From assembly GCA_903832635.1 (NCBI GenBank), contig CAILCF010000001.1, forward strand, positions 186,001-250,000: DNA of 64,000 bases. Direction: 5' to 3'. This DNA is from an uncultured bacterium (GTDB lineage Bacteria; Patescibacteriota; Saccharimonadia; Saccharimonadales; Saccharimonadaceae). Numbering within the stretch: position 1 is the stretch's first letter; every line of letters starts with the position of its first letter. The position numbers were made by a program, and so were the translations under genes. The notes under the pieces are model-generated. The model searched no databases. It had not been told where the DNA came from and saw nothing but the letters and a program-made list of their open reading frames with translations. Of this stretch, positions 6,470 to 44,222 are shown piece by piece.

Positions 6470-6931
6470 ATGGACAAAGAAGAATCAGTTCAATTTGCAC
6501 AAAAATATCTTGAAGATTTACTATCTTTTTTTGGAGCCAACATTACAGTGTCTTCGACCTGCGAGGAAGACGTTATTGAACTATCGGTGCCATCAAACGA
6601 GCTTAACAGCTTGCTGATTGGACGTAACGCCGAGACCTTGCGCAGTCTGCAATATATAGTCTCGACCGTCCTACGAAGCAAAGACGCCCTTCTAACACGT
6701 GTCAACGTCGACATTGCCGACTATAAAAAGCAACGAGCCGACCGAGTCGCCGCCCAGGCTCGTGAATGGATCGAGGAAGTCAAAAAGACAGGGGATTCAA
6801 AAGTCGTCAATATGAACGCCGCCGACAGACGTATCGTCCACAAGGTTGCCAGCGAATATGGTGACATTCAGACGTTTTCCGAAGGCGAAGGCTTTGATCG
6901 CAAGCTTACGATTGCTCAAGCTGGTAGTTAG
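6470..6931 (+). CDS. jag: Jag/KhpB-like KH-R3H RNA-binding protein
   Basis: KH-like LLIGRNAETLRSLQYIV and R3H-like MNAADRRIVHKVASEYGDIQTFSEGEGFDRKL. Confidence 0.88.
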   Translation: MDKEESVQFAQKYLEDLLSFFGANITVSSTCEEDVIELSVPSNELNSLLIGRNAETLRSLQYIVSTVLRSKDALLTRVNVDIADYKKQRADRVAAQAREWIEEVKKTGDSKVVNMNAADRRIVHKVASEYGDIQTFSEGEGFDRKLTIAQAGS

Positions 6932-6997
6932 TAGTTGGTAGGTGGTATTTGGTATTGCGCAATGCAATTCTACCATCTACTATTTACCATATACCAA
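6923..6997. repeat. Degenerate heptamer array, inverted halves
   Basis: ggtagtt|agtagtt|ggtaggt|ggtattt|ggtattg ... ctaccat|ctactat|ttaccat|ataccaa, between convergent genes. Confidence 0.75.
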
Positions 6998-6998
6998 A

Positions 6999-8105
6999 TT
7001 ACGGTCTAACGTAATTTCGCACGGCGTCAATATATATACTATAGGTTTGTTTTGCCATGCGTTCCCACGAGTATTTGGCGATTTGTTTATAACCCTCGGC
7101 AATTAGGCTGTTTCGCAAACCTTCATCACTTAAAACTTCGTCAATTGCCCGGGCCATATCATCCGTATTTAGCGGGTCAAAATAGTGGGCAGCATCGTCA
7201 TAAACCTCTGGCAAGCAAGTAGCGTTACTACTAACTACCGGCGCACCGTAACCCATCGCTTCCAGTCCCGGCAACCCAAACCCCTCCATCAGCGAAGGAA
7301 AAACATAGGCCGCAGTGTTTTTATACAGCCAATCGCGCTGGGGGTTGGGCAAAAAGTCGGTAAAATGAATATTTTTATAACCCTTGCTTTCAAAGTATTT
7401 TTTGTTATTTTGGGCGCTGGCATTTATCTTTCCAACCAAAATAAGACCCAAATCAGGGTATTTTTGTAAAAGTTTCTGATGGGCATCGCCCAGTCGCTTA
7501 ATATTTTTATAATCGCTTTGTTGGCCGACGTACATAATATATCGGTTAAAAGGGTGTTCGTACGGCGTAACTTCACTGGCGAAAATATCAGCAGCTTCGG
7601 GCGTAACGGCGACTTTATCCGGGTTTAACTTTGTATCAAATTTTAACAGCTCGTTCTTCGTATATTTGCTGGGCGTAATGATAAATTTACTGGTTTTTAA
7701 AACGCGTCTGAAAACGAATCTGCCGACAAACTGTTTGAAGTGAAAAATTAGCCAACCCTTATCGGAATTATAAGTTTTTAACAGCGATAAATCGTGAAAC
7801 GTGGTAACGTGTATGCCTTTGTACCGAATCGGTTGTTGGGGCATGCAATAATGCACCAAATCCGGGTGTAGTTCGTCCAGGTAATTCTTGAATCCAATCT
7901 GTTCTGACAGCGAGTAATTGTCAAAATCAGCCACCTTAACATGAAAATTGTCGCCCGTTGGTTTCCAAAATTCTTTATCTTTGGCGCGTACTAAAACCGA
8001 ATAATTACTGACCTCATCGATTTTCTGCAAATAATGCAACAGACGCTCGACGTACATCCCCGTTGAACTATTGATAATTCTGGCATCTATCGCAATATGA
8101 CGCAT
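6999..8105 (-). CDS. Glycosyltransferase family 1/4
   Basis: FPSLMEGFGLPGLEAMGYGAPVVSSNATCLPEVYDDAAHYFDP. Confidence 0.9.
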   Translation of the reverse strand: MRHIAIDARIINSSTGMYVERLLHYLQKIDEVSNYSVLVRAKDKEFWKPTGDNFHVKVADFDNYSLSEQIGFKNYLDELHPDLVHYCMPQQPIRYKGIHVTTFHDLSLLKTYNSDKGWLIFHFKQFVGRFVFRRVLKTSKFIITPSKYTKNELLKFDTKLNPDKVAVTPEAADIFASEVTPYEHPFNRYIMYVGQQSDYKNIKRLGDAHQKLLQKYPDLGLILVGKINASAQNNKKYFESKGYKNIHFTDFLPNPQRDWLYKNTAAYVFPSLMEGFGLPGLEAMGYGAPVVSSNATCLPEVYDDAAHYFDPLNTDDMARAIDEVLSDEGLRNSLIAEGYKQIAKYSWERMAKQTYSIYIDAVRNYVRP

Positions 8106-8187
8106 CCCGTTAGAATCCCTTCCTAAGTAAAAAAAGTCCTGATGGGTATGTATGTGATTCTAAGTTGAGGATTCTAACGGGACGCAT
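8106..8187 (-). repeat. Palindromic start-codon element, locus 1 (encodes 25-aa uORF MRPVRILNLESHTYPSGLFLLRKGF*)
   Basis: CCCGTTAGAATCC 8106-8118 / GGATTCTAACGGG 8169-8181 perfect 13-bp inverted repeat; ATGCGTC on both sides. Confidence 0.75.
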
Positions 8188-9930: not shown

Positions 9931-10864
9931 TAGTGTTACTTTCCTCGATGTAATAAAGCGGGCGCTGTTTGACCTCTTTAAAAATTCGGCCGATATATTC
10001 ACCGATTACACCCAGCGATAGCAGTTGGACGCCGCCCAAAAACAGCACAACTGCCATCAGTGACGGATAGCCGGCAACGGTATCGCCAAACATAGCAGCT
10101 TTAATAATTACCCAAAAAAGGTAAATAAATGCAGAGACTGAAATTATTACGCCGAAAAACGAAGAAATTCGCAGTGGTGTCGTCGAAAACGAAGTAATCC
10201 CGTCGATTGCCAAATTAATTAGTTTTCGATAGTTTTGTTTAACTTCACCGGCTGCGCGTGGGTCGCGGTCGTAGGTGATTTCTTTTTTCTTGAAACCAAC
10301 CCAGCTGAACATGCCTTTGGTGTAGCGTTCGGATTCGCGTAGTTTTTTCAAGGCTTCAACACAACGTCGGTCTAATAACCGGAAATCACCGGTATTTCGG
10401 GGGATTTTTATCAGTTGACCCTGAGTCATTTTGTTCAACAGCCAATAATAAGTATTGGCGGTCACTATCTTTATCCAAGTTTCACCCTCGCGACTACTGC
10501 GCTTGGCATAAACGTCGTCATAGCCTTCTTCCCAGAACTTAATCATCTTTGGAATCAATTCCGGCGGATCCTGCAAATCAGCGTCGATAATTACCGTCGC
10601 ATCACCCGTAACGTGGTCCAATCCGGCAATCATGCCGATTTCTTTGCCAAAATTACGTGACAAACTGACATATTTTACTCGGTCGTCTTTTTTGGCGTAA
10701 TCTTTGATTATCTGTAGGGTTTTATCCTTGCTGCCGTCATCAGCAAACAAAAACTCAAATGCATACGATTTATTATCATTAGCTAGTTTACCAATACGTT
10801 GGTACAGGTGTTCTAAAACTTCTTGCTCGTTATAAGCGGGGATTAAAATACTAATTTTTTTCAT
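9902..10864 (-). CDS. GtrB/DPM1-like GT2 glycosyltransferase
   Basis: ISILIPAYNEQEVLEHLYQRI...DADLQDPPELIPKM...GVIGEYIGRIFKEVKQRPLY. Confidence 0.92.
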   Translation of the reverse strand: MKKISILIPAYNEQEVLEHLYQRIGKLANDNKSYAFEFLFADDGSKDKTLQIIKDYAKKDDRVKYVSLSRNFGKEIGMIAGLDHVTGDATVIIDADLQDPPELIPKMIKFWEEGYDDVYAKRSSREGETWIKIVTANTYYWLLNKMTQGQLIKIPRNTGDFRLLDRRCVEALKKLRESERYTKGMFSWVGFKKKEITYDRDPRAAGEVKQNYRKLINLAIDGITSFSTTPLRISSFFGVIISVSAFIYLFWVIIKAAMFGDTVAGYPSLMAVVLFLGGVQLLSLGVIGEYIGRIFKEVKQRPLYYIEESNTSEKSDKKVR

Positions 10865-10970
10865 CCCGTTAGAGCTCCTTAGTTAATTTATTGTTACGAA
10901 TAGCCGTCAGTTCTATTATTATCCTTGCGCTATACCTACAAGTATCAATAAGAGCTCTAACGGAATTCAT
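10865..10970 (-). repeat. Palindromic start-codon element, locus 2 (33-aa uORF MNSVRALIDTCRYSARIIIELTAIRNNKLTKEL*)
   Basis: CCGTTAGAGCTC 10866-10877 / GAGCTCTAACGG 10952-10963; ATG-to-ATG length 106 bp. Confidence 0.78.
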
Positions 10971-10992
10971 CAGTACTAGTATAACGCAAGAT

Positions 10993-11092
10993 GGTAGTTT
11001 GTAGGTAGTAGTTGGTATCTGGTTTAGCACTAACCGATTTTGCCATCTACCACATACTATCTACTATTTACCACCTACCACCTACTATCCGC
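10993..11092. repeat. Degenerate heptamer array, inverted halves
   Basis: ggtagtt|tgtaggt|agtagtt|ggtatct ... ccatcta|ccacata|ctatcta|ctattta|ccaccta|ccaccta. Confidence 0.75.
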
Positions 11093-16597: not shown

Positions 16598-17579
16598 CCC
16601 CAAGGTGGCCTATTTAGTGCTTTGTTGGAATAACAAGGATATTATAGCTGAGTGCTTAGACTCTATTGCCAAGCAAGATTATGACAACAAAGATACCTAT
16701 GTTATAGATAATTCTTCATCGGACGGTTCGCCCGATTTCATAGCAAAAAATTATCCGCATGTACATTTAGTAAGGTCAACAAAAAATAATGGCTTCGACA
16801 AGGGAAACAATATATTAATTGATATAGCACTTCAAGATAAAGACATAAAATACGTTGCTCTAATCAACAGCGATATATCTCTAGAAAAAAAATGGACAAG
16901 TGAAATAATTGATTATATTGCAAAAAAACATAAGGTGGCTAGCGCTCAGGGGGTAACTCTGGATTATTATAATCATAAAAAAGTTGATTCCACTCATATA
17001 TATCTTGCCGATAATTTACAGTCAATCCAATACGGCTACGGCGAACCCTTCACCAACAACATGAAGTTCCCCAGAAAAATTTTTGGTGTAAATGCTGCCG
17101 CCGCCATATATACGAGTGATTTTATTGAGAATCAACCAAGTAAAAAACTGTTTGATAAAAAGTTTTTTATGTATCTAGAGGATGTTGATATTGCACTTAG
17201 ATCTGTTGTCACTGGTTGGAATAATTACTATGTCCCATCTGCCAAAGCCTACCATATGGGTTCAGCTAGCTCTAAAAAGAAAGCAAGTAACTATGCGTTT
17301 TTCATGACATTTCGCAACCAGTCTGCACTTTTATTTAAAAATCTGTCGTTTGTGACAATATTTAAATATATACCACGGGCGGTAAATACCGACACCCATC
17401 TATATAAGTGGCTTAAGTTAGAATATGGTGCTAGAACCATGTTTAAGGTCATCTGGGGCAGAGTATGGGGGATCCTTAGGCTGCCACTCTTCATTCCAGG
17501 TCGAATACAAATTAGAAAAGCAGCAAAGAGAAGCGACAGCGAAATAGAACGGATTATTAAATCTCGTGGTATTTTTTAA
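16584..17579 (+). CDS. GT2 glycosyltransferase
   Basis: VAYLVLCWNNKDIIAECLDSIAKQDYDNKDTYVIDNSSSDGS...FFMYLEDVDIALRSVVTGW. Confidence 0.88.
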   Translation: MKLASPKVAYLVLCWNNKDIIAECLDSIAKQDYDNKDTYVIDNSSSDGSPDFIAKNYPHVHLVRSTKNNGFDKGNNILIDIALQDKDIKYVALINSDISLEKKWTSEIIDYIAKKHKVASAQGVTLDYYNHKKVDSTHIYLADNLQSIQYGYGEPFTNNMKFPRKIFGVNAAAAIYTSDFIENQPSKKLFDKKFFMYLEDVDIALRSVVTGWNNYYVPSAKAYHMGSASSKKKASNYAFFMTFRNQSALLFKNLSFVTIFKYIPRAVNTDTHLYKWLKLEYGARTMFKVIWGRVWGILRLPLFIPGRIQIRKAAKRSDSEIERIIKSRGIF

Positions 17580-19273
17580 GTTGCTATCCGACCTTCTTTT
17601 TGACCAAAATTAATGTAGTGGATATAATAAGCTTTCAAGTTATTCCCAAATGCTATTCGGAGATCCGGGTACCGATTTTTATATGATACGACATTAAAAC
17701 TATCACTAGCTTGACGTCCTTCGTTCATACCGAAATTAACAAAATGCATGAGGGCAGCGACATCATCACTACCAAAACCTGTTTTTATATCTGAGTAGTT
17801 TGTTATATACGTATTAAAATTATAAACAGCAGAGTAATCAACCCCATTTAGGACTGAGGTGCCATTAAACACATTACCAGTTGCTACCCGTCCCTCATTT
17901 TTGCCATTATTGATATAATGCAAATAATATGCTTGTAAGTTATTCCCAAATGCTATTCGGAGATCCGGATATCGATTTTTATAAGATATGACATTAAAAC
18001 TATCGCTGCCTTGTCGTCCCTCCCTCATACCGTAATTGATGAAATGAGTAATAGCGCCAGCATCATCACCACCATAAGTCGTCCTCATGTCCGTATAATT
18101 TGATATATATGTACTAAAATTATAAACATCTGAATAGTTAACACCATTCTTGCTGTTAATATAACTTATAGGGTAGTCTCCGGTTGCCACGCGCCCTTCG
18201 CTTTTACCAAAAATAATATAGTGTAAATAATATGCTGGCAAATTGGCACCAAACGTCATGCGCAAATCAGGATAGCGATTTCTGTAAGATGTTACATCAA
18301 ACCCATCGCTGCCTTGCCGTCCCTCGCTCATTCCGTAATTTACGAAATGCGTAAAGGCAGAAATCGCATTATTACCATACGCTGACTTTACGTCGGGGTA
18401 TTTATTTAGATAATAAACACCGTCAAAAACAGCAGAGTAACTCTTTCCATTGTAAATATAGGCGTATGTGCTTCCGAACCAATCATTAAAATATAAATAA
18501 AAATTTCTATTGCCATACGAACTGCAGCCATCACCAGAACCGTAACCTGCGTTTAATGATGCCTGGTTGGGCTGATAAGGTGTATAGTCATAAAGCGAAG
18601 CGGTCGCTAAGTTCTGTATATTTACCACTGAACTACCACACACATCTTTTGGGTTCCATTTTATATTATTATTACCCAACACATAAGGCGAATACCATGT
18701 TGAGCTTGAGGTAATGACGGAATGGAACAATTTTGCGGCGTTATTGACTTGGTTGGTAAACCCATAATATGACGAGTCGCAGACTCCTGGCGTACTGTCG
18801 GGGCAACCATAACCGGTTGCACTCTTATACTGGTAGGATGCCGGCCAAGTGTCAGTTATTAATGCCTCCTCTTTTTGTAGCAGCACTAACAATACCTGGG
18901 GATTAATGTTATAGGTTTGGGCTGCATTGTAAATTATTTGTGCCGCAGTCAAATTGTTTTCGGTATAGTCTTTAAGGCATGTGAACGGTGGTCCATACCA
19001 AGTTCCACTAGACCCATAGAACCCCGCATGATTTGTGTCGCAGACAGGGACTTTACTATTAATAAAAGCTTGGATTTGTGAAACGTTCATCGTACCAGAG
19101 TTTGTCATTACTAAATTGTCCATTATATTTCCAGGATTGAATCCAACAACTGTCGCTGCGTGGCTTATGCTAGGGATACCAAACGATAATAAAGAAGCAA
19201 AGCAAGTTATCGCAAGTACGACCAAGCCTTTTCTTGTCAATATTTTCGTGATTAGATTCATCCTAGCTATCAT
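17576..19273 (-). CDS. Secreted repeat protein: lysozyme-like N-terminal half plus tandem (Y..YPD[VL]....G....A..H[FY][VI].[FY]G..EGR) repeats
   Basis: Signal peptide/TM, then about six repeats of the ~45-aa motif. Confidence 0.7.
   Translation of the reverse strand: MIARMNLITKILTRKGLVVLAITCFASLLSFGIPSISHAATVVGFNPGNIMDNLVMTNSGTMNVSQIQAFINSKVPVCDTNHAGFYGSSGTWYGPPFTCLKDYTENNLTAAQIIYNAAQTYNINPQVLLVLLQKEEALITDTWPASYQYKSATGYGCPDSTPGVCDSSYYGFTNQVNNAAKLFHSVITSSSTWYSPYVLGNNNIKWNPKDVCGSSVVNIQNLATASLYDYTPYQPNQASLNAGYGSGDGCSSYGNRNFYLYFNDWFGSTYAYIYNGKSYSAVFDGVYYLNKYPDVKSAYGNNAISAFTHFVNYGMSEGRQGSDGFDVTSYRNRYPDLRMTFGANLPAYYLHYIIFGKSEGRVATGDYPISYINSKNGVNYSDVYNFSTYISNYTDMRTTYGGDDAGAITHFINYGMREGRQGSDSFNVISYKNRYPDLRIAFGNNLQAYYLHYINNGKNEGRVATGNVFNGTSVLNGVDYSAVYNFNTYITNYSDIKTGFGSDDVAALMHFVNFGMNEGRQASDSFNVVSYKNRYPDLRIAFGNNLKAYYIHYINFGQKEGRIAT
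17636..18420. repeat. DNA-level tandem duplication within the repeat protein gene
   Basis: ttattcccaaatgctattcggagatccgg(gtac/atat)cgatttttata occurs at ~17640 and ~17940. Confidence 0.8.
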
Positions 19274-30200: not shown

Positions 30201-31046
30201 TCAGAGATACTCGCCATAACCGGATTTTTTGAGAGGTTCGGCAAGTTCAGACAGTTGGGTTTTATCAATAAAACCTTCTTTATATGCAGCTAGTTCGGGG
30301 CTACCGATTATTTGACCGGTTCGGGTTTGAACGACACGGATGTAGTCAGCAGCGTCAGTCATACTGTTAATTGTCCCGGTGTCAAGCCAAACATCGCCTT
30401 CATCAAGTGTTGTGACAGACAACTTTCCGCGGTTTAGATATTCTTCGTTGACTGCGGTAATTTCTAGTTCACCACGCGCGCTTGGTTTGATGGTTTTCGC
30501 AATTTGAATGACGTCATTGTCATAAAAATATAAACCGACAACTGCATAATTAGATTTCGGATTTGCGGGTTTTTCTTCGATAGAAAGTGCCTTGCCATTG
30601 CCATCGAGTTCAACTACGCCATAACTTTTTGGATCTGAAACTTCGTATGCAAATACAATTCCACCATCTGGGTCAGAGCATTTTTTTAGCGATTCGCTTA
30701 GTCTGTGACCGTGGAATATATTGTCGCCAAGTATCAATGCTACTTTGTCATTACCAATAAAATCCTCGCCAATAATAAATGCCTGAGCCAATCCGTCGGG
30801 GGAAGGCTGAACTGCATATTGCAGGTTAATACCCCACTGCGACCCGTCGCCAAGCAGGCGCTGAAATTGCGATTGATCATCAAGCGTGGTGATTATCAGA
30901 ATGTCATTAATATTGGCAGAAATCAGAGTTGTCAGCGGGTAATATATCATCGGCTTGTCATAAATTGGCATAATTTGTTTGCTAATTCCTTTTGTAATCG
31001 GCCAAAGCCTTGTTCCTGAACCGCCTGCTAGAATAATACCTTTCAT
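30201..31046 (-). CDS. rmlA: Glucose-1-phosphate thymidylyltransferase (start revised to 31046)
   Basis: [38 protein letters not shown]. Confidence 0.95.
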
Positions 31047-31152
31047 CCCGTTAGAGCTCCTTTGATAGTTTATCGTTAGCAATAATAATTCGTTTTATTC
31101 GCATATATATTAGATTTAAGTAAGTATATTGAAAAGTTCTAACGGGATTCAT
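31047..31152 (-). repeat. Palindromic start-codon element, locus 3 (33-aa u[36 protein letters not shown])
   Basis: CCCGTTAGAGCT 31047-31058 / AGTTCTAACGGG 31135-31146; ATG-to-ATG length 106 bp; ends homologous to locus 2. Confidence 0.78.
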
Positions 31153-31430
31153 ACTAGAGCTCCTTTAAAATATTCTTTAATTCTATTGTTAACATATCTT
31201 TTACCCATTCCTGTTTTTAAATAACGCTCTCTGGCAAAAGCATCTTTTTTATTCAAACTGGCTTCGTAATAGATAAGTTCATATGGACCACGACCCTTTG
31301 TGTATGGGCTTTTGCCTTCATTATGTTCAGCAAATCTTTTACGTAAGTCAGACGTACATCCAGTATACCAATTATTGCTCTTCAAGCTCTTGAGCACATA
31401 AACATAATGGAAAGCTCTAACGGGATTCAT
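31149..31430 (-). CDS. GIY-YIG domain endonuclease, with ends matching the palindromic elements
   Basis: YVYVLKSLKSNNWYTGCTSDLRKRFAEHNEGKSPYTKGRGPYELIYYEASLNKKDAFARERYLKTGMGKRYVNNRIKEYF; starts ATGAATCCCGTTAGAGC. Confidence 0.92.
   Translation of the reverse strand: MNPVRAFHYVYVLKSLKSNNWYTGCTSDLRKRFAEHNEGKSPYTKGRGPYELIYYEASLNKKDAFARERYLKTGMGKRYVNNRIKEYFKGALV
31149..31430 (-). mobile_element. Candidate autonomous copy of the CCCGTTAGA/TCTAACGGG element family carrying the GIY-YIG gene
   Basis: ATGAATC on both sides; begins ATGAATCCCGTTAGAGC, ends AAAGGAGCTCTA; sits between rmlCD stop and rmlA start. Confidence 0.5.
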
Positions 31431-32901
31431 CCCTTTGCCTCCCTTCTTTTTCTAAATAATTTTTCAACGATTTTCGCCAATCAGTTGGGACAAAGCCCGT
31501 AGTCTTTATTTTATCAAGATTTAAGGTGCTTTGTAATGGCCGCGGTGATATGTATGATTTACCTTCGTAATATTGTTCGGTTGAAACACCTGTGACTTCA
31601 TCGCGACTGTGACCGGACAGTTCGTAAACGTCAGCTGCAATGTTAGCCCAACTGACAGATTCGCCATCGCCGGATATGTTATAGGTGCCATATGGTAGGT
31701 GGTAGGTGGTAGGTGGTAGGTGGCCAGCAGTTGGAGGATAGGAAATGGGAGTAAGCAGGTGTTTGATTCCTCGCGCCAAATCGTCCGTAAAGGTAAGTCG
31801 GCCGACTTGGTCATTGACGACATTTGGTTTGACGCCTTTTTCGGCAAGTGATTGCATAGTTCTAACAAAGTTGTTACCATCGCCAATTACCCAACTAGCG
31901 CGGGCAATATAATGTTTCGGGACCATAGCAGCGGCAATATCACCGGCTGCCTTGGTTTGGGCATAAACTCCAAGCGGACTGAACGTTTCGCTTTCGTTAT
32001 GCTCGGCTTTGGTACCGTCAAATACATAATCACTGGAAACGTGAACAAGTGTAATGCTGTGTTTGGTAGCAATTTTCCCAAGGTTGGCAACAGCTTCAGC
32101 GTTTAGTTTCCAAGCAGCTTCGCGACCTTCGGGGGTTTCTGCCAAATCGACAGCAGTGTAGGCTGCGACGTTGATAATTGTTTCGTATTGACGCCATGGT
32201 CTGGCATTTTCAAGTTCCGGGCTGGTAATATCCAGTTCCTGATAGTCCGTAAATTCGGCATCAGGAAATTCAATTTGCAAGGCACGACCTAATTGGCCGT
32301 TCGAGCCGGTTATAAGCGTTCGTTTTGGCTTCATTGGCACAACTTCGGACAGACGAGGATGGATCTTATCCTTGTCAGATAGTTCTGCCTGGTCAAGTGG
32401 AATTGGCCAATCGACGGCCACCGTTTCGTCAGCAAGGTTCAGAAATGTGTAATCTGCGTCTGCGCTCCAGTGGTCATTAACCAAATAAGTGTATACCGTG
32501 TTTTCTTCCAGTGCCTGAAAACCGTTTCCAACACCGCGAGGAGCAAATACTGCCTTGGTTGGATCAAGTTCGGCGGTGAAAACCTTGCCGAAACTATCAC
32601 CCTGACGTAAATCGACCCAGGCGCCAAAAATTCGTCCAGACCCGACTGAAATAAATTTATCCCATGGCTCAGCGTGGATACCGCGGGTTACTCCTAATTC
32701 GGCATTAAAAGAGATATTGTTTTGGACAACATCAAATTCCGGTAGGCCAAGTTTGGTCATTTTTTCCTGCTGATAATTTTCCTTGAACCAGCCGCGCGAA
32801 TCGCCATGAACCGGTAAATCAGCAATCAAAAGACCGGGAATTGGCGTTTCATGAAAAGCCAGAACTTTTTCGAATTCAAGCTCGCCTTTTTCAATAGTCA
32901 T
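31417..32901 (-). CDS. rmlCD: Fused dTDP-4-dehydrorhamnose 3,5-epimerase / dTDP-4-dehydrorhamnose reductase (start revised to 32901)
   Basis: RmlC-like HGDSRGWFKENYQ...RGIHAEPWDKFISVGSGRIFGAWVDLR; RmlD-like RTLITGSNGQLGRALQIEF...INVAAYTAVDLAE...VSSDYVFDGTK. Confidence 0.92.
   Translation of the reverse strand: MTIEKGELEFEKVLAFHETPIPGLLIADLPVHGDSRGWFKENYQQEKMTKLGLPEFDVVQNNISFNAELGVTRGIHAEPWDKFISVGSGRIFGAWVDLRQGDSFGKVFTAELDPTKAVFAPRGVGNGFQALEENTVYTYLVNDHWSADADYTFLNLADETVAVDWPIPLDQAELSDKDKIHPRLSEVVPMKPKRTLITGSNGQLGRALQIEFPDAEFTDYQELDITSPELENARPWRQYETIINVAAYTAVDLAETPEGREAAWKLNAEAVANLGKIATKHSITLVHVSSDYVFDGTKAEHNESETFSPLGVYAQTKAAGDIAAAMVPKHYIARASWVIGDGNNFVRTMQSLAEKGVKPNVVNDQVGRLTFTDDLARGIKHLLTPISYPPTAGHLPPTTYHLPYGTYNISGDGESVSWANIAADVYELSGHSRDEVTGVSTEQYYEGKSYISPRPLQSTLNLDKIKTTGFVPTDWRKSLKNYLEKEGRQRDESR
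31694..31758. repeat. Heptamer array inside rmlD: four perfect GGTAGGT copies (31694-31721) followed by degenerate units
   Basis: ggtaggt x4 then ...ggaggat|aggaaat|gggagta. Confidence 0.9.
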
Positions 32902-32906
32902 ATAGT

Positions 32907-34945
<2,039 letters not shown>

Positions 34946-34971
34946 CGGTTGTTTATTGTAACACGGGAAAT

Positions 34972-35006
34972 AGTAGGTGGTATATGGTAGGTAGTAGATG
35001 GTATGG
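34972..35006. repeat. Heptamer array, GGTAGGT class
   Basis: agtaggt|ggtatat|ggtaggt|agtagat|ggtatgg. Confidence 0.8.
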
Positions 35007-35040
35007 GTTCGCCGTATGGCGAATGGGTTATAATAGGTAC

Positions 35041-36084: not shown

Positions 36085-36089
36085 TTTCT

Positions 36090-36124
36090 GGTAATTGGTA
36101 GGTAGTATATGGTAGGTAGTAAGG
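36090..36124. repeat. Heptamer array, GGTAGGT class
   Basis: ggtaatt|ggtaggt|agtatat|ggtaggt|agtaagg. Confidence 0.8.
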
Positions 36125-39696: not shown

Positions 39697-39701
39697 CGCT
39701 T

Positions 39702-39768
39702 GGTAGGTGGTAGATAGTATATGGTAAATAGTAGGGGCCAATAGCCAATAGCTGCATTCCAAATGCCA
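39702..39768. repeat. Heptamer array, mixed classes
   Basis: ggtaggt|ggtagat|agtatat|ggtaaat|agtaggg then ccaatag|ccaatag|ctgcatt|ccaaatg|ccaaact. Confidence 0.8.
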
Positions 39769-42805: not shown

Positions 42806-42889
42806 TGGGATAGGGAGTGGGGGTTGGGAAATGGGAAATTGGAGTGGCTGGCTGTAGGTGGTATATAGTAGGTGGTAGATGGCGGATAG
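42806..42889. repeat. Composite heptamer array, GGGAAAT class then TAGGTGG class
   Basis: tgggata|gggagtg|ggggttg|ggaaatg|ggaaatt|ggagtgg ... taggtgg|tatatag|taggtgg|tagatgg|cggatag. Confidence 0.8.
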
Positions 42890-44222
42890 AAAAAATCAAA
42901 ATTCGATTGGGACACCGGGCAAGATATATATTGGTATTCTGGCTGTTATATTTGGTGGAATAGTTATTCATGCCCCACTTACCGTAGCAATTGGGACGCT
43001 GTGGCCTAATTATGACCTATTGATTAAATCTTGGAAAGAAATACTGATGCTGGTTGCGGGACTGCTGGCACTTTATTTAATGTATGAATCCGGTCAAATG
43101 AAAAAAATACTTCGTGATCCGATTATCTATTTGATTGCTGGGTATGCATTATTACATCTGTTATTGATGTTTTTCATGAACCAAGGACCTTCCGCAAGCT
43201 TTGCAGGGCTGGCGATTGATTTACGGTTTGTGCTGTACTTTGCACTGGTTTATATCGCAATGACTTTGTATCCGAGATATCGGAAAATGTTTATCAAAAT
43301 CGGTATCGGTGGGGCGCTGGTCGTGTTGGTTTTTGCCCTGTTGCAAGTGTTTATTTTACCTAACGATGTTTTGAAATATTTAGGCTACAACGTGAATACG
43401 ATTAGCCCATATTTGACTATCGATAAAAACCAGGCGTTTATTCGGATAAACAGCACGCTTAGGGGACCAAATCCGTTAGGAGCATATGCCGGTATTGTTT
43501 TGACCCTACTTACGGCATGGACTGCAAAGAAAAAAGTTGATAAAAAAAGGTGGCCACTGACAGTTTTTGTAATTCTACTGGTAGGTGCAGTCGTAACATT
43601 ATGGGCTAGCTATTCTCGCAGTGCTCAGACTGGCACGGCTATCGCCATTGCTATAGTGCTTGCCGTCACGTTTTGGCATAAATTATCTACAAAAATGTGG
43701 CTAATAATAGGTATTTTGTTTGTTATTGCAGCTGGCGGGTTATTTATGGCTCGCAATACCTCTTTTATTTCTAATGTCGTATTGCATGAAAATCCAAATG
43801 GCGGAAGTAGTGTTAATTCAAACGAGGGGCATATCAGTTCAATTAACGATAGTTTTTCTCAATTATTAAAACAACCGTTAGGGGCAGGGCTTGGGAGCAC
43901 GGGCAGTGCGTCCTTACTGGGTAAAAACGCGGAAATTATTGAAAATCAGTATCTGTTGGTTGCTCATGAAGCAGGGTGGCTGGGGTTGGCGTTATTTGTA
44001 TCAATATTTGCAGCGGTTATGACCAGATTATGGAAACTACGAAAAGATTGGCTGGCACTGGGAGTGTTTGCCATCGGTATCGGGCTGGCGGTTGTTGGGC
44101 TATTTTTACCGGTTTGGACCGACGACACTGTTTCAATCATTTGGTGGGGGTTGGCGGCAGTCGTGGTAGGTAGTAGATTGTATATAGTAGATAGTAAAGG
44201 TGATAAAAAGCATGGCAAGTAG
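42879..44222 (+). CDS. O-antigen ligase/polymerase-like membrane protein
   Basis: Many TM segments; RGPNPLGAYAGIVLTLLTAW and LGAGLGSTGSASLLG...ENQYLLVAHEAGWLGLALFV. Confidence 0.82.
   Translation: MADRKNQNSIGTPGKIYIGILAVIFGGIVIHAPLTVAIGTLWPNYDLLIKSWKEILMLVAGLLALYLMYESGQMKKILRDPIIYLIAGYALLHLLLMFFMNQGPSASFAGLAIDLRFVLYFALVYIAMTLYPRYRKMFIKIGIGGALVVLVFALLQVFILPNDVLKYLGYNVNTISPYLTIDKNQAFIRINSTLRGPNPLGAYAGIVLTLLTAWTAKKKVDKKRWPLTVFVILLVGAVVTLWASYSRSAQTGTAIAIAIVLAVTFWHKLSTKMWLIIGILFVIAAGGLFMARNTSFISNVVLHENPNGGSSVNSNEGHISSINDSFSQLLKQPLGAGLGSTGSASLLGKNAEIIENQYLLVAHEAGWLGLALFVSIFAAVMTRLWKLRKDWLALGVFAIGIGLAVVGLFLPVWTDDTVSIIWWGLAAVVVGSRLYIVDSKGDKKHGK
44165..44199. repeat. Heptamer array encoding the C-terminus of the O-antigen ligase-like CDS
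   Basis: ggtaggt|agtagat|tgtatat|agtagat|agtaaag. Confidence 0.8.

Follow-up and report, generated by a model that had tools for sequence, protein, structure and literature searches.

REP and REPIN elements are short palindromic repeats dispersed by one small protein, the Y1 transposase RAYT, and their insertion is extragenic. GIY-YIG nucleases act as selfish genes in homing endonucleases such as I-TevI, I-BmoI and Seg; for UPF0213/YhbQ and Slx1, the structurally closest relatives of the nucleases described below, we know of no mobility, and to our knowledge no GIY-YIG enzyme joins strands. A survey of the superfamily in 2006 posed the question of whether molecular parasites exist among GIY-YIG proteins besides the homing and restriction enzymes (PMC1564403). 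The tyrosine recombinase of the Tsy transposon is assisted by a GIY-YIG nuclease that it can do without (PMC10293859). Rickettsia palindromic elements (RPEs) often insert within ORFs, to which they are fused in frame, and the peptide that they encode is conserved (PMC10969869). IStrons are mobile DNA that limits damage to host genes by being spliced out of RNA (PMC4227781). In CPR bacteria, insertion sequences occur in rRNA genes, and some of the non-intron inserts contain GIY-YIG ORFs; the authors think that these did not spread by homing (PMC11270868).

The short element described here resembles RPEs (PMC10969869) and MITEs in its size class (~100-150 bp), inverted ends, lack of a transposase, many copies and compatibility with the host frame. 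Both the terminal inverted repeats and the target-site duplication of a MITE are present. Unlike an RPE, it inserts before the host ORF, at the start codon, and the host restarts at its own ATG; it has a 5-bp duplication, an unconserved peptide and a nuclease-bearing partner with the same ends. The family differs from REP/REPIN-RAYT in that its partner is GIY-YIG rather than Y1/HUH, and in its target duplications and start-codon insertion. With I-TevI, I-BmoI and Seg the partner shares the nuclease fold, the catalytic residues and the character of a selfish gene, but it lacks a DNA-binding extension (93 aa in total) and has inverted ends, duplications and many unrelated targets. In contrast to UPF0213/YhbQ and Slx1, the present nucleases are bounded by inverted repeats and dispersed. 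The rRNA inserts come from the same bacterial radiation but have rRNA genes as targets (PMC11270868), and where IStrons are spliced (PMC4227781), the present elements duplicate the start codon and leave translation to restart.

The window, i.e. the whole stretch of DNA analysed, comprises 64,000 nucleotides of a Saccharimonadaceae genome; its features are collected in Table 1. At the gtrB locus, minus-strand positions 10860-10970 can be read directly as ATGAA/TTCCGTTAGAGCTC...GAGCTCTAACGGG/ATGAA, or with more of the flanks as ...gttatactagtactg ATGAA/TTCCGTTAGAGCTC...AAGGAGCTCTAACGGG/ATGAAAAAAATTAGT (slashes mark junctions). An insert of 101 bp with inverted ends thus lies between two 5-bp copies of ATGAA, which includes the gtrB start codon. 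The coordinates and lengths in a first-pass annotation of this DNA are exact, with 106 bp from ATG to ATG, a uORF of 33 aa and a TAA-CGGG-ATG junction (TAACGGGATG), and the copy at rmlA (31044-31152) has the identical length and junction that were claimed for it. Overlooked were the 5-bp target-site duplication, the GIY-YIG gene bounded by the same ends, and the fact that the -10 box is the host's. The ends of the two copies, described as closely matching, do match, but as a 5-bp target repeat with inverted repeats and not as a conserved peptide. TATACT was reported 7 nt before the uORF ATG in both copies; it is found there at gtrB (10978-10983, reverse complement), but no TATACT-like box precedes the rmlA copy, where the GIY-YIG ORF is directly upstream. 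Such a box does precede the third copy (8106-8187). Since a relative without the insert has TATACT at the same place, the box is probably the promoter of gtrB itself, probably leaderless, and would predate the insertion.

Table 1. Features in the window (positions count from its first letter)
Feature	Position	Strand	Basis
Short element, gtrB copy, TTCCGTTAGAGCTC...GAGCTCTAACGGG, 101 bp	10865..10965	-	Direct reading; G003 empty site
5' target-site duplication copy ATGAA = uORF start codon	10966..10970	-	Comparison with G003 empty site gttatactagtactg/ATGAAAAAAATT
3' target-site duplication copy ATGAA = gtrB start codon	10860..10864	-	Direct reading; G003 comparison
uORF, 33 codons + TAA, MNSVRALIDTCRYSARIIIELTAIRNNKLTKEL, then stop	10869..10970	-	Frame open in 22/29 related copies vs 4.9 expected
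Left inverted-repeat arm TTCCGTTAGAGCTC	10952..10965	-	Pairs with right arm; arm complementarity tested
Right inverted-repeat arm GAGCTCTAACGGG	10865..10877	-	Direct reading; arm complementarity
AAGGAG, Shine-Dalgarno-like, overlaps right arm, 10 nt before gtrB ATG	10875..10880	-	Direct reading; paired in predicted mRNA fold
TATACT -10 box, 7 nt before ATG	10978..10983	-	Present also at relatives' empty sites
gtrB-like host gene, family 2 glycosyltransferase, 320 aa	9902..10864	-	PF00535 E=1e-33
rmlA copy of short element	31047..31147	-	Target copies ATGAA at 31148-31152, 31042-31046
GIY-YIG nuclease ORF, 93 aa, of full-length-type element adjoining rmlA copy	31149..31430	-	PF01541 E=1.1e-14
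Third short copy TCCCGTTAGAATCC...GGATTCTAACGGG	8106..8182	-	Target copies ATGCG at 8183-8187, 8101-8105
Host gene of third copy, 368 aa ORF, starts MRHIAIDARI	6999..8105	-	Direct reading
Degenerate repeat tracts	6929-6996, 10992-11088, 31672-31728, 34964-35013, 36089-36124, 39701-39736, 42845-42894, 44164-44199		

Within the genus, 17 of the 21 clear gtrB orthologs are without the insert. In G003, whose GtrB is 94% identical, the site is exactly empty (...tatactagtactg/ATGAAAAAAATT); its sequence, gttatactagtactg ATGAAAAAAATTAGC, is what remains of the occupied site when 101 bp and one ATGAA are taken away, both of which are present in G000. The same gtrB ATG also carries inserts in G007, G009 and G024. 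The interior of the G000 gtrB copy is 71% identical to that of a copy at another gene in G024 (L320) versus 49% to that of the gtrB copy in G007, a likeness that is no proof but would fit movement better than simple inheritance. The rmlA site is empty in 8 of 11 genus genomes and occupied in 3, from three species. The full-length, nuclease-encoding form is found at ychF in G017 and G024 (...ATGAG/TCCCGTTAGAACC...GGTTCTAACGGG/ATGAGTTTATCC), while the ychF start is without an element in 20 other genus members. The ychF element of Saccharibacteria bacterium CG2_30_41_52 (L192) agrees with those of G017 and G024 in ends and duplication, so the genus of the window probably belongs to Saccharibacteria. 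Near-identical elements (94.5%) are found at unrelated genes.

A scan of the window for paired ends returns exactly three short copies, at gtrB, at rmlA and at 8106-8182, and the genome has a fourth beyond the window (L052). The genome-wide copy search that the first-pass annotation proposed gives four matches to CCGTTAGAGCTC (at most one mismatch) in the 793-kb genome, every one inside these elements, a count that copies with badly decayed ends may escape. The interiors of the gtrB and rmlA copies were said to differ, and they are only 51% identical, yet this is above the 30 +/- 5% of shuffled sequences; the two copies therefore share ancestry beyond their ends. The rmlA copy is directly downstream of the GIY-YIG ORF, and the element with that ORF has an intact left arm (ATGAA/TCCCGTTAGAGCTT) and an eroded right arm (CTCTAGTATGAA). 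The host gene of the third copy has a likely ortholog in G017 (MSHIAIDARIIN), with a 106-bp copy at its start codon (L298). The upstream neighbour of the GIY-YIG element, an rmlC-rmlD fusion gene (31417-32964 in the window), stops at a TAG within the element's left end (ATGAATCCCGTTAG), and so the element may have altered the C-terminus of the fusion.

The ends of the family, TCCCGTTAGANNN...NNNTCTAACGGG, are terminal inverted repeats with arms of 12-14 bp. We searched 380 genomes of the phylum for TCCCGTTAGA...TCTAACGGG, 20-80 bp apart, with no ATG required; this unbiased pattern matches in 30 genomes, and its reversed control in 0. A scan of GTDB, with one genome per species, ends 241-291 bp apart and an ATG required on the right, yields at least 116 loci. 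Among the matches listed, 110 of 119 end pairs at this distance encode a GIY-YIG protein, not one of the transposases that define DDE, HUH/Y1, tyrosine- and serine-recombinase insertion sequences. The named hosts, among the matches listed, are mostly Patescibacteria (Nomura-, Kaiser-, Yanofsky-, Doudna- and Saccharibacteria, and others); some Omnitrophota, Planctomycetota, Desulfobacterales, Aminicenantes, Balneolota and one Woesearchaeota bin also appear, single cases of which may be contaminated bins. Short elements are present in 11 of the 14 genomes that have the GIY-size form, compared with 30 of 380 overall (p=3e-11).

The full-length form is ~280 bp long, and its single ORF is a 93-aa nuclease that belongs to the GIY-YIG superfamily by its PF01541 match, conserved Tyr, Arg and Glu and predicted fold. 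Residues Y9, Y11, Y22, G24, R32, E68 and K72, which include the catalytic-type Tyr, Arg and Glu, are invariant among 40 diverse copies. The predicted structure (mean pLDDT 87.5) is closest to UPF0213 and then to the branched-DNA nuclease Slx1 (Slx1-Slx4); 1zg2 is the closest solved structure both by sequence (E=2e-11) and by fold. A pN/pS of 0.20 over 24 pairs indicates purifying selection. In a profile search of 287 genomes, the best matches are the end-bounded nucleases and the more distant homologs are without ends; on the nuclease tree, the with-ends and without-ends labels are clustered, with 4 changes versus a shuffled mean of 22. The intact ORF starts at the ATG of the 5' target copy in 43 elements, and its last residues are typically ...LTG, followed by a stop that the 3' copy provides (TGA of GGATGA), so that the duplicated target lends it both codons. 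Roughly half of the nuclease ORFs are out of frame with the target ATG and need an internal start. The full-length pattern has no match in viral contigs, and defence-system models gave no match either. Larger end-bounded elements with another enzyme were considered, but the seven candidate pairs proved to be nested or composite arrangements around host genes, or chance pairs. In an Aminicenantes bin (L125, 4156-7543), a DNA-methylase-like gene lies between two full-length elements that have the same (direct) orientation, an arrangement like that of a composite transposon.

Within the arms, CCCGTTAGA is fixed by the search pattern, and variation was scored in the next three bases. These vary (GAT, GAC, GCC, GAA, CCT, AAT, AGT and others), and they are complementary between the two arms in 111 of 119 full-length elements among the matches listed (32 when shuffled) and in 61 of 74 short elements (17 when shuffled). 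Such covariation would be expected if a paired structure, hairpin or cruciform, were recognised, or else if there were repeated copying from arm to arm.

Among the matches listed from GTDB, 117 distinct GIY-size elements have an exact target repeat of 5 bp in 70 cases, 4 bp in 11 and 6 bp in 5. Because the GTDB pattern itself required the right-hand ATG, we tested the bases that follow: where ATG is present on both flanks, these share the next two bases in 70 of 79 elements among the matches listed (shuffled mean 42, maximum 52). Where the search did not ask for ATG, exact repeats of at least 5 bp flank 34 of 74 short elements, and since repeats other than ATG occur (ATCAA, ACGAG, ATTGA, ACTTA, GTGAA), the duplication is not a start-codon artefact. 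Start codons are frequent, with 22 of these 34 repeats starting with ATG (p=4e-4 even if G in either orientation is allowed 0.35 per element). An ORF of at least 60 codons begins at the right-hand ATG in 110 of 119 full-length elements among the matches listed, and in 35 of 41 elements of the unbiased short set, versus 29% for any ATG. In several Nomurabacteria, the start codon of the same gene (MQFKVPQFL...) has been hit (L137, L152, L171, L176) with duplications of 4, 5 or 6 bp, and these differing lengths make independent insertions look likely. On such sequence comparisons, the repeated insertions favour start codons as genuine targets, to which selection against other insertions could contribute.

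Exact duplication is absent from 16 of the 22 GIY-size elements of the unbiased set, either through decay or because of a subfamily with TTTAC...GTRAA flanks. Six elements of full-length size (L061, L065, L066, L242, L251 and L252) have flanks like TTTAC...GTAAA or GTGAA, longer inverted ends and no visible duplication. Another subfamily, of 77-82 bp (L037-L041 and L271-L274, in G122, G139, G157, G170 and G183), always ends at ATG; a conserved left flank (mostly ACTTGT or ACCTGT) replaces the target duplication, and there is an inner ATCGGGAC motif. It is perhaps domesticated, or a type that moves differently.

Copies of exactly 106 bp number 13, at 11 genes in four genomes of the genus, and their interiors, with the exception of one odd copy (L011_2), show 39-80% identity (30% when shuffled). 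For the frame test we used the order-level set of 29 short copies whose right arm is AGGAG-like. In 22 of them the frame that starts at the 5' ATG is open as far as the junction; 4.9 are expected, and 22 was never reached in 200,000 simulations. The distance from ATG to ATG is 1 mod 3 in 21 copies and 2 mod 3 in 7. A conserved leader peptide was considered and rejected: the dN/dS check that the first-pass annotation had suggested gives no sign of selection on the peptide, the uORF pN/pS of 0.84 being not below that of the other frames (0.73 and 0.71). With the open frame kept and the peptide not, the conserved property is passage of the ribosome to a junction beside a ribosome-binding site and an ATG, i.e. 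translational coupling. In short elements elsewhere in the phylum, outside the Saccharibacteria type, the frame is not kept, and thus its keeping is a refinement specific to this lineage. The predicted fold of the gtrB leader (z=-3.2) buries AAGGAG in a long stem between the two arms; that of the rmlA leader is not unusually stable (z=-0.4). That the 106-bp form arose from the nuclease gene by internal deletion was also considered, but alignment finds no detectable derivation of its interior from that gene.

Taking this together, the gtrB repeat is quite likely a non-autonomous, MITE-like member of a miniature mobile family in which the GIY-YIG nuclease is the probable mobility enzyme: the nuclease-encoding partner with the ends of the short form exists, and we infer its role in movement. 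The following events would account for the insertion, duplication, ends, nuclease linkage, start-codon placement and frame preservation apparent in the compared genomes. The nuclease would recognise the inverted ends, which may be extruded into a hairpin or cruciform, and make a staggered cut, 4-6 nt wide, from the A of ATG. The element would be joined in, and gap filling would then yield a duplicated start codon. The upstream ATG copy could start the nuclease or the uORF with the promoter or ribosome-binding site of the host gene, and the downstream copy would restart the host gene itself. In the Saccharibacteria copies this open uORF runs to the junction (TAACGGGATG or an ATGA overlap), with AAGGAG of the right arm near the restored ATG, and ribosomes leaving the uORF would melt the arm-arm hairpin that masks AAGGAG. 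Given the uORF open to the junction and AAGGAG near the restored ATG, host translation is probably recoupled by these ribosomes. In this scheme the nuclease would move the element, start codons would be preferred rather than the survivors filtered, and coupling would restore host expression.

The main competing explanation is that an unrelated transposase acting in trans, e.g. of Y1/REP or DDE type, moves the ends, with the GIY-YIG nuclease as a passenger or helper like TnpB in IS200/IS605. That we know of no GIY-YIG strand transferase speaks for it, as do two Y1 transposases in the genome and the precedent of Tsy, where the GIY-YIG protein is dispensable to a tyrosine recombinase (PMC10293859). 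However, neither Y1 gene is flanked by these ends, no transposase is found in any end-bounded unit of 320-4000 bp at the 116 fetched loci, and the nuclease is the sole gene of nearly all full-length units and is under purifying selection; we consider this explanation unlikely. A Y1/REP transposase was specifically set aside as the partner, there being no linkage in this genome. It is very improbable that a free-standing homing endonuclease cuts element-free start-codon regions, into which the element is copied by homologous repair. The fold is that of homing endonucleases, with weak matches to a family of phage homing endonucleases and to the model for group I intron endonucleases, but homing goes to the same allele, with no target duplication or inverted ends, whereas here the target genes are unrelated, duplications of 4-6 bp are frequent and short copies without the nuclease have spread too.

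An origin as a cis-regulatory leader, with an attenuator-like uORF and a hairpin over the ribosome-binding site kept for regulating gtrB and rmlA, would explain the open frame, the stop-start spacing, the burial of AAGGAG and the rmlA position common to three species. It appears improbable given 106-bp copies at 11 unrelated genes, most orthologs without the element and a peptide that is unconserved; cis-regulation may instead be a later, domesticated role at some sites. Chance resemblance between two short sequences has small size in its favour and nothing else, and it is refuted by the reversed-pattern control (0 versus 30/380 genomes), the exact empty site and more than 100 relatives. Coincidence, against which the first-pass annotation argued from two unlinked loci, is excluded, and there is strong support for a repeated element placed exactly at start codons.

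Beyond the mobile, MITE-like reading, we are inclined, with some reserve, to regard the 93-residue GIY-YIG nuclease as a self-sufficient transposase with hairpin-forming ends and start-codon targets. The ~280-bp unit would then be among the smallest autonomous transposons, of a new enzymatic class, and would persist in streamlined genomes by duplicating the start codon that it breaks. The anatomy, inverted ends with a duplication, is classical; the enzyme and the target are the new part. The short form works like a MITE, and the family is outside every transposase class whose defining enzyme was tested. In open-licence PMC papers (few subscription journals, no preprints), we found no description of the end motif or of a transposable element with only a GIY-YIG protein, nor one in the literature there on GIY-YIG with duplications, MITEs, Patescibacteria repeats or start-codon insertions; the motif gave only unrelated matches among those listed. 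The family is apparently undescribed. If this is true, GIY-YIG would be added to the classes of mobility enzyme, perhaps with the smallest autonomous transposon, and selfish DNA would have a route into the gene-dense genomes of Patescibacteria: it inserts at a start codon, borrows the promoter and start of the host, and gives back a start codon and a ribosome-binding site. Many Patescibacteria genes would have to be re-annotated at their start codons, and so would many small ORFs of the 'GIY-YIG' and 'MNPVR...' kinds. The question raised in PMC1564403 about GIY-YIG parasites is made testable by this family.

Other repeats are present in the window. Degenerate TGGTAGGTGGTAG / CTACCATCTACC intergenic tracts, in both orientations, flank many of its genes, including one just upstream of the gtrB promoter, and are unrelated to the element ends. 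At 17579-18451 there are three tandem units of ~300 bp each that are 68-77% alike.
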